Below are positions 50,616 through 51,177 of a stretch of 64,000 bases of DNA, piece by piece (positions within the stretch are counted from its first letter, which is position 1; each line of letters begins with the position of its first letter). The DNA lies in the NCBI RefSeq assembly GCF_950295315.1, contig NC_080164.1, positions 56,267,451 to 56,331,450 of the forward strand. The letters are read 5' to 3'. The DNA is from Erinaceus europaeus (taxonomy: Eukaryota; Chordata; Mammalia; Eulipotyphla; Erinaceidae). The position numbers and the translations under genes are program-made. The notes beneath the pieces were generated by a model. It saw only the letters and a program-made list of their open reading frames with translations, searched no databases and was not told where the DNA came from.

Positions 50616-50621
50616 AGAACC
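50616..50621. repeat. Left TSD of LTR-tRNA-7SL insertion
   Basis: The sequence agaacc is repeated exactly at 51172-51177. A 6-bp duplication is the size made by class II (betaretrovirus-like) integrases. Confidence 0.85.
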
Positions 50622-50751
50622 TGATGCCGAACTTAGTGCGGACACCCGATCGGCATAGCGCACTGCAGCCCAGAACTCCTGAGCTCAAGCGATCCTCCAG
50701 CCTCAGCCTCCCAAGTAGCTGGGACTACAGGCGCGCGCCACCACGCCCGGC
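50622..50751 (-). ncRNA. RN7SL (pseudogene fragment): 7SL RNA nt 1-130 (truncated retrocopy)
   Basis: 7SL is the RNA scaffold of the signal recognition particle. The minus strand begins gccgggcgtggtggcgcgc and runs without gaps through the Alu domain into 7SL-specific sequence ('ctatgccgatcgggtgtcc', 'gcactaagttcggcatca'), which Alu SINEs lack. It ends at nucleotide 130 of about 300. From memory of human 7SL I count about six substitutions, two at CpGs, and most CpGs survive. It has no 3' end or terminator, so it is not a functional gene. Confidence 0.92.
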
Positions 50752-50817
50752 TAGCTCAGTCGGTAGAGCATGAGACTCTTAATCTCAGGGTCGTGGGTTC
50801 GTGCCCCACATTGGGCG
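50745..50817 (+). tRNA. tRNA-Lys-CTT (pseudogene): tRNA-Lys(CTT) full-length copy (retrocopy)
   Basis: All 73 nucleotides are present with anticodon CTT (in 'gactcttaatc'), followed by CCA at 50818-50820. Two differences from the mammalian gene as I know it: A58 to T in the T loop (50802) and G66 to A (50810). A58 is m1A in the mature tRNA and the usual stop of plus-strand strong-stop synthesis. G66A lies in the PBS at a former CpG. The altered B-box (ggttcgtgcc) makes Pol III activity unlikely. Read from the LTR, it is the primer copied to its very 5' end. Confidence 0.93.
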
Positions 50818-50820
50818 CCA
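50803..50820 (-). promoter_or_regulatory. Retroviral primer-binding site (tRNA-Lys)
   Basis: The minus strand reads tggcgcccaatgtggggc, the 18-nt complement of the tRNA-Lys(CTT) 3' end including CCA, with one C-to-T change. It sits two bases from the LTR end, as in class II ERVs. Unusually, complementarity to the tRNA continues far beyond position 18. Confidence 0.92.
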
Positions 50821-50822
50821 GA

Positions 50823-51171
50823 TGTTGTTGCGGTGGTCTGGTGTCGGGGTGCACCGCAGAGAAGAGAGCGGACGTCCAGAGCAAAGGGGTACACAAATCT
50901 TTATTATAGGATGGGGGGGGAGGTTTGGTTCAGACCACATGGAGCCAGCCAGCAATGGCCGACCACGGGGGGAGAGCAGGGAGCGAGACCTCAGAGAGGG
51001 AGAGCCGAGAGCCCAGAGATAGAGAGGGGAGGGGTGAGGGGGCTTTTTACTGGGCGACAACCAGGGGTGCCATGTAGGGCCAGGATTGGTTGAAAGGGGG
51101 CACTCTAGGATTTTGCGGGGCATAGAAAAACCTGGGGGCGGAGACTGCATCAGAATAACTCCTCAGCAACA
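50823..51171 (-). mobile_element. Class II-like ERV LTR, 349 bp
   Basis: On the minus strand it starts TGTTGCTGAGG and ends GCAACAACA, a 5-bp terminal inverted repeat TGTTG..CAACA. A CCAAT box lies at 51085-51089, a TATA-like 'agtaaaaagcc' at about 51042-51052 and a polyadenylation signal AATAAA at 50900-50905. It is GC-rich with many CpGs, suggesting a fairly young insertion. The solo LTR at 23.3 kb belongs to another family. Confidence 0.9.
50900..50905 (-). promoter_or_regulatory. LTR polyadenylation signal
   Basis: AATAAA on the minus strand followed by 'gatttgtgtacccc', typical of the R region of an LTR. Confidence 0.85.
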
Positions 51172-51177
51172 AGAACC
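51172..51177. repeat. Right TSD of LTR-tRNA-7SL insertion
   Basis: agaacc, identical to 50616-50621. The next base is also shared if the first base of the insert is counted. Confidence 0.85.

Follow-up and report, generated by a model that had tools for sequence, protein, structure and literature searches.

A hedgehog LTR insertion carrying a complete copy of its primer tRNA-Lys and part of 7SL RNA as a probable product of plus-strand read-through

The 64,000-nt stretch of the Erinaceus europaeus genome analysed here (the window) contains a single 550-bp insertion on the minus strand, made up of a long terminal repeat (LTR), the dinucleotide TC, a primer binding site (PBS), the complement of tRNA-Lys(CTT) including its CCA (anti-tRNA), and 7SL RNA nt 1-130 (Table 1). 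This unit is probably an integrated by-product of reverse transcription that went wrong when plus-strand strong-stop DNA overran the primer tRNA. We observed the anatomy of the unit and its target-site duplication, 102 places in the same assembly that exactly match the PBS and the adjoining anti-tRNA, and anti-tRNA reaching the exact tRNA 5' end in 37/100 of these places. Run-off predicts such exact ends, and these joints therefore count for read-through. Most of what is known about the m1A58 stop and second strand transfer comes from experiments in the test tube or with laboratory viruses, and here one animal genome seems to preserve ~100 natural failures at this stage with their joints at base level. 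Each joint would show how far into the tRNA the plus strand went, the base opposite position 58, the acceptor, and transfer within versus between genomes. If the reading is true, in-vivo misreading of m1A, intermolecular second strand transfer and the entry of 7SL and rRNA into retroviral DNA become testable from sequence alone.

Table 1. Features of the insertion and its flanks, in window coordinates
Feature	Position	Strand	Remarks
Left target-site duplication copy, agaacc	50616..50621	.	6 bp
7SL RNA nt 1-130	50622..50751	-	sense relative to LTR; Rfam RF00017 (Metazoa_SRP) 77.7 bits, gathering 70
GCCGGGC overlap of anti-tRNA 3' end and 7SL 5' end	50745..50751	-	7 nt, common to both parts
Complete tRNA-Lys(CTT)	50745..50820	+	76 nt with CCA; ARAGORN; Rfam RF00005 54.6 bits
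tRNA position 58 (m1A58 site), T for A	50802..50802	+	
PBS	50803..50820	-	18 nt, complementary to tRNA nt 59-76
Complete LTR	50823..51171	-	349 bp, TG..CA; sister-locus LTRs 91-100% identical
Right target-site duplication copy, agaacc	51172..51177	.	6 bp, perfect match to left

Re-reading of the sequence confirmed the components named in the original prediction, namely an LTR, PBS, whole anti-tRNA-Lys and 7SL nt 1-130 within TG..CA ends and a perfect 6-bp duplication. These had been placed end to end; their order and content were right, but the anti-tRNA and 7SL overlap by the 7 nt GCCGGGC. This overlap had gone unnoticed, as had the changed position 58 and the recurrence across the genome. 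When the first 30 nt of 7SL were shuffled, an end overlap of at least 7 nt arose in 0.16% of shuffles. The LTR runs TGTTGCTGAGG..GCAACAACA (minus strand, 51171-50823) and is separated from the PBS by the 2-nt spacer TC; beyond the PBS, the complement of the remaining 58 tRNA nt follows unbroken, and the complement of the tRNA thus sits in the retroviral plus strand. The tRNA agreed with human tRNA-Lys(CTT) at 74/76 positions, the only differences being A58T and G66A, the latter at a CpG. Since the copy includes CCA, its template was a mature tRNA. A tRNA gene adjoining an LTR by chance was excluded, with CCA present and directly abutting the LTR spacer. Alu-like SINEs retain less of 7SL than the part found here, and the source was therefore 7SL RNA itself. 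This part was identical at 124/130 positions to human 7SL, whose letters are given in PMC3395682. Its far end, GGCATCA, provides the CA terminus of the insertion. With the outer ends fixed by LTR and 7SL homology, the flanking 6-mers would match by chance in ~1 in 4096 cases. Insertion as one unit by particle enzymes and integrase, as had been proposed, was supported by the 6-bp duplication and TG..CA ends and by 16/30 long sister loci with two LTRs and an exact duplication; from duplication length and PBS, the element is provisionally assigned to the class II (betaretrovirus-like) endogenous retroviruses (ERVs). Self-comparison of the window gave no second copy of the unit, and IMG/VR pattern searches with the tRNA-7SL joint and the U5-PBS joint gave 0 matches each. 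By eye, L1-like sequence adjoins the unit.

The unit was searched against its own genome assembly (2.72 Gb), giving 62 matches (best 40 of 2906 candidates scored) that correspond to 40 loci, every one of which was examined. An LTR, TC spacer, PBS and 58-76 nt of anti-tRNA were present in 38/40 scored loci, with T at position 58 in 34 of the 38 and A in four; at L051 the anti-tRNA runs for no more than 19 nt, and the leader of L057 is a normal one that is followed by a gag-like start. A pattern that joined the PBS to the next 14 nt of anti-tRNA and allowed any letter at position 58 had 102 exact matches in the assembly and its reversed control none, which refutes the suggestion that the structure is unique. 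The recurrence of the tRNA joint at other genomic places also disfavours an assembly fault. One hundred of the 102 matches were read, 21 of them already among the loci and 79 as 170-nt pieces that start at the PBS and so cover no upstream LTR. At these 100 listed places the PBS ran unbroken into anti-tRNA (100/100, by virtue of the pattern). The anti-tRNA ended at nt 76 in 37, with differing onward sequences, at nt 70-75 in 27, at nt 67 in 10 and elsewhere between nt 37 and 69 in 26. There were 91 distinct joints, with repeats in four groups (L001/L002; L006/L020/L069; L085/L086/L088/L089; L102/L120/L123/L128). A genome-wide search for copies, as had been recommended, thus yielded many related places, but with varied joints and not one mobile structure. 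The idea of a family founder is unsupported, given these joints and a window LTR that is 7.3-7.4% from the other tRNA-7SL LTRs. The four loci L085, L086, L088 and L089 (contigs C10, C11, C64 and C73) have one common joint into the LTR, and their contigs are short (1.4-1.7 Mb and 0.2 Mb); they are probably duplicated contigs or one duplicated region. Other U5 types (..GAATTTTAACAACA-AA-TGG; ..CATATGTTGTTTT) showed tRNA-Lys read-through or acted as acceptors (L139, L134, L072, L108, L111, L116, L125 and L136, and places matching a pattern of T58 and TTTT), and more than one LTR family is therefore involved. Some copies of the LTR itself carry a 64-bp tandem repeat of nt 29-93 and others lack it (LTRs of L014-L029); the 5' LTR of L022 has an extra copy.

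Far ends were tallied by hand in the 30 long loci (at least 1.3 kb of flank), 17 of which were extended downstream by ~7 kb. Two LTRs were found in 19/30, with duplications matching at 6/6 positions in 16 and at 5/6 in three (L021, L028 and L030), while L012 had a distant LTR and no duplication. Among four single-LTR loci, L001 (the window unit) and L020 had exact duplications, L006 matched at 5/6 and L003 was ambiguous; no far end was assigned in 6/30 long loci (L005, L007, L010, L025, L027 and L029). The short loci L048 and L052 were also single-LTR insertions with exact duplications, and their far ends match the U5 end of another ERV (..GAATTTTAACAACA). Acceptors included internal sequence of the virus, its LTR (L014 and L101), a second tRNA copy (L132), inverted viral leader (L006, L020, L060 and L069), antisense 28S rRNA (L026 by an Rfam LSU match, L053 and L091 by letters in common), 7SL and other ERVs. 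Where the upstream sequence of the acceptor was in hand, microhomology of at least 2 nt was present at 9/19 joints versus 5.6% at random (P 3e-7). Full-length read-through DNA terminates in GCCGGGC, and GCCCGGC was found in the L057 leader and at the 7SL cDNA end; presumably it also occurs in 28S rRNA at the joint. Nine loci had LTRs diverging by 0-1.7% (L004, L008, L009, L011, L013, L015, L018, L024 and L026). The LTR pairs of L014, L016, L017 and L022 were 2.9-3.8% apart, differed in the 64-bp tandem repeat and had nearer relatives elsewhere, despite exact duplications. The simplest reading of these divergent pairs is plus-strand transfer to the minus strand of another molecule, though slippage that removed a repeat, and age, may account for some of the differences. 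In older studies second strand transfer was described as intramolecular (PMC12789967, in excerpt).

Across the 100 listed places, tRNA position 58 was T in 88, A in nine and G in three, which corresponds to A 88, T 9, C 3 and G 0 opposite it in the plus strand (79, 9 and 3 with one vote per joint). Beyond position 58, the copies differed at 20/3492 non-CpG and 21/274 CpG positions. At the non-CpG rate, a background taken from the stretch past position 58 because the pattern fixed the exact letters beside it, the 12 departures from the majority letter had a P of about 8e-13. Position 58 is therefore mixed far above background, and one inherited copy does not explain it. According to excerpts of the literature, m1A58 is the plus-strand stop in HIV-1, without which copying reaches the tRNA 5' end (PMC13191261), and cDNA misreads m1A, with m1A-G yielding a low C signal (PMC4787781). 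If T58 is a misread m1A, then an A58 gene is expected. Exact-stretch pattern searches of the assembly gave no A58 gene that matched the copied tRNA at all other positions: a 42-nt A58 stretch had six exact matches (L022, L026, L078, L080, L125 and L139), each of which its place or sequence identified as a read-through copy, and a 60-nt stretch had a single one, the read-through copy L136. Only L140 combined A58 with TTTT and no CCA, and it had two differences from the copied tRNA (C4T and C42T). L137 (G000:C86:64331300-64331600, nt 94-166) was a full CCA-less tRNA-Lys(CTT) with the copied tRNA's letters except T58 and no TTTT in the 37 nt shown after it; it may be a retrocopy, a gene in decay or a genuine gene for a U58 tRNA. 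L138 was a damaged CCA-less T58 copy. The T58 pattern with TTTT in reach matched 10 places, where the tRNA ended in CCA in nine and CTA in one, and judged by their letters these are taken as read-through copies. Either, then, intact A58 genes lie outside the assembly and position 58 was misread, or the primer was a U58 tRNA; read-through itself stands whichever origin T58 had.

A pattern for the normal leader of the virus, which leaves out leaders bearing the tRNA's own letters, matched 381 places in the assembly. Among the 100 matches listed, the PBS was TGGCGCCCATCGTGTTCC or near it (one A at letter 10, by eye), and L057 likewise had TGGCGCCCATCGTGTTCC. This PBS agrees with the tRNA-Lys(CTT) copy over the first nine letters and then differs at letters 10 and 15-17, whereas the 18-nt PBS of the read-through copies matches tRNA-Lys(CTT). 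The latter may thus not be the usual primer of the virus. Because of the differing letters, even a correctly stopped plus strand would pair poorly with its acceptor, which would favour ectopic transfer after a correct stop at m1A58.

In the read-through account that we prefer, a plus strand primed at the polypurine tract would have copied U3-R-U5 and continued through the entire tRNA, which was still attached to the minus strand, passing position 58 and likely misreading m1A58. Instead of making the normal transfer to the PBS, its 3' end, GCCGGGC, would have annealed to GCCCGGC, the 3' end of a 7SL cDNA (the 7-nt end overlap), after which each annealed strand could be extended on the other. 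Synthesis of the 7SL cDNA possibly began immediately 3' of nt 130, at a priming site that resembles the one for tRNA-Lys, and integrase would have trimmed both product ends to CA before insertion. The same failure on other acceptors would yield deleted proviruses, some by transfer between two co-packaged genomes. Of the chimera of LTR, primer tRNA and 7SL originally proposed, the particle origin is retained, but the tRNA would be a plus-strand read-through copy of the primer and not an added third piece. We count against this account the missing exact A58 donor gene, the T58 copy L137, the mismatched normal PBS, the loci without an assigned far end, L012 with its lack of a duplication and the ambiguous duplication of L003.

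The nearest alternative concerns only the origin of T58. If the primer were a tRNA-Lys isodecoder with an encoded U58, there would be no m1A58 stop, T58 would be faithful and the A58 minority would come from the ordinary tRNA. This would account for how common read-through is, and it fits the two CCA-less T58 copies, L137 and L138, and the failure to find an exact-donor A58 gene in the assembly. However, L137 has no TTTT and, by the B-box rule for tRNA genes, an altered B box; the T58 and TTTT pattern gives read-through copies only (10 places); L140, the sole CCA-less copy with A58 and TTTT, is two positions off the donor; and G58 (3/100) and A58 (9/100) require a second source or misreading. 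We therefore consider an encoded U58 unlikely, although an A58U tRNA-Lys3 made in the laboratory hinders HIV-1 (PMC13191261, in excerpt), and on the A and G minority at position 58 we favour misreading. It is an equally tentative idea that a natural suicide primer exists, or once existed, in this host lineage: a tRNA-Lys at which the plus strand does not stop, owing to an encoded U58 or a bypassed m1A58. Reverse transcription would then have run to the tRNA 5' end and repeatedly destroyed its own product, with ~100 deleted or chimeric insertions as the result. Such a primer would correspond, in the germline, to the A58U tRNA used against HIV in the laboratory, and 7SL and 28S rRNA would have been captured as collateral.

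The spread of one master element with PBS and anti-tRNA (T58), its joints made later by minus-strand template switching, is distinctly improbable. T58 is common to 88/100 places, four groups of places have a common joint, and L002 is small, two-LTR and mobilisable in principle, all of which speak for such an element. It would not explain why 37 copies stop exactly at nt 76 and then diverge, why letters at position 58 vary far more than those at other sites, why 5' LTRs are of several subtypes (with and without the 64-bp tandem repeat) with varying U5 ends, or why the tRNA copy also follows other U5 types. Stepwise assembly by separate insertions of the LTR and of retrocopies of a tRNA and of 7SL, or a LINE-1 chimera, has hardly any probability: a single 6-bp duplication surrounds the whole unit, which has TG..CA ends and no poly(A) tail, and the LTR-PBS-tRNA order recurs in 38/40 scored loci. 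Mammalian L1 chimeras with tRNA and with 7SL have been reported (PMC13174262, in excerpt), and the L1-like sequence seen by eye beside the unit would suit that route, but a LINE-1 retrocopy needs a poly(A) tail and a longer, variable duplication.

The biochemistry of read-through is known in pieces. Among titles and abstract openings of the open-licence literature, we found no description of germline proviruses with a whole primer tRNA, nor a germline record of such failures; open-licence papers likewise gave nothing specific on Erinaceus ERVs. The comparisons that follow draw on excerpts of the sources named. Strong-stop DNA made in vitro on unmodified tRNA-Lys3 (product P1, PMC13191261) likewise copies the primer tRNA to its 5' end, but this test-tube product was said to be unusable for transfer, whereas the class described here is integrated in the germline. 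In HIV and MLV, tRNA letters also enter the provirus through the plus strand at PBS inheritance (PMC4549124, PMC7472051), but as 18 nt up to position 59 only, beyond which the window copy continues; modification signatures were sought within the PBS and none were found (PMC7472051), and position 58 lies just outside it. The recombinant of Hajjar and Linial 1993 (via PMC4997597) had 7SL joined to retroviral DNA, as in the window, and was a single laboratory case. LTR-mediated retroposition (Tan and others 2016, cited in PMC5408686) is alike in its particle enzymes, microhomology, capture of host RNA and LTR-type insertion, but involves minus-strand switching to mRNA, with no primer tRNA copy at the joint described; it needs both LTRs around the host RNA, and the window unit, with one, was rejected as a case of it. 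The TRIMs Helenus, Ajax and Cassandra are short LTR elements with small-RNA sequence, like the window unit, but hold their tRNA or 5S part inside both LTRs, and no TRIM with 7SL had yet been found according to the author (PMC10886601). A TRIM or other mobile family (two LTRs, PBS, polypurine tract, one structure and many copies) was also rejected, as there were only three exact tRNA-7SL joints in two structures.

These three joints, the only exact ones in the assembly, are L001, L002 and L003; an exact search could have missed decayed ones. L002 is a small provirus consisting of an LTR, PBS, anti-tRNA, 7SL nt 1-141, 29 nt with a polypurine tract and a second LTR (duplication GAGGGG), and with two LTRs around 7SL it illustrates a route to short LTR elements enclosing host RNA. 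L001 and L003 have one LTR each, and their 7SL ends at nt 130 or within one base of it; the duplication of L003 is 6 bp if the end is GGCATC and 5 bp if it is CA. The LTR of L001 is 2.6% from that of L011 and 7.3-7.4% from those of L002 and L003. On sequence distance this favours at least two captures of 7SL, with recombination possible, and a single-founder spread of the three, though conceivable, is not supported. Shared differences of the captured 7SL from human were discarded as evidence of descent, as the letters at three test sites (GAGCTCAGG..CTGCAG) occur at 11/22 matched places, nine of them other than L001 and L002. According to an excerpt of PMC4997597, 7SL and tRNA are abundant in virions and endogenous reactions yield 7SL cDNA. 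Human 7SL just 3' of nt 130 reads ATA-TGGTGACC and pairs at 7/8 positions with the tRNA-Lys 3' end. There are two such tRNA-Lys-like priming sites in 7SL, and in 1.5% of shuffles one lay no more than 6 nt from the break, in a post hoc test made after the end was seen and with stronger duplexes present in 7SL. We suggest that priming there would account for where 7SL ends in L001 and L003, next to a CA that integrase could use.

Among copies that stop short, lengths of 67 nt and of 70-72 nt predominate, corresponding to tRNA positions 10 and 5-7; four of the 10 at 67 have one and the same joint. At L132 the anti-tRNA occurs twice in tandem, which would fit a switch of the plus strand to a second tRNA. 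At L060 and L113 an inverted LTR U5 follows the anti-tRNA, as would result if viral RNA had been copied backward from the leader by the plus strand.
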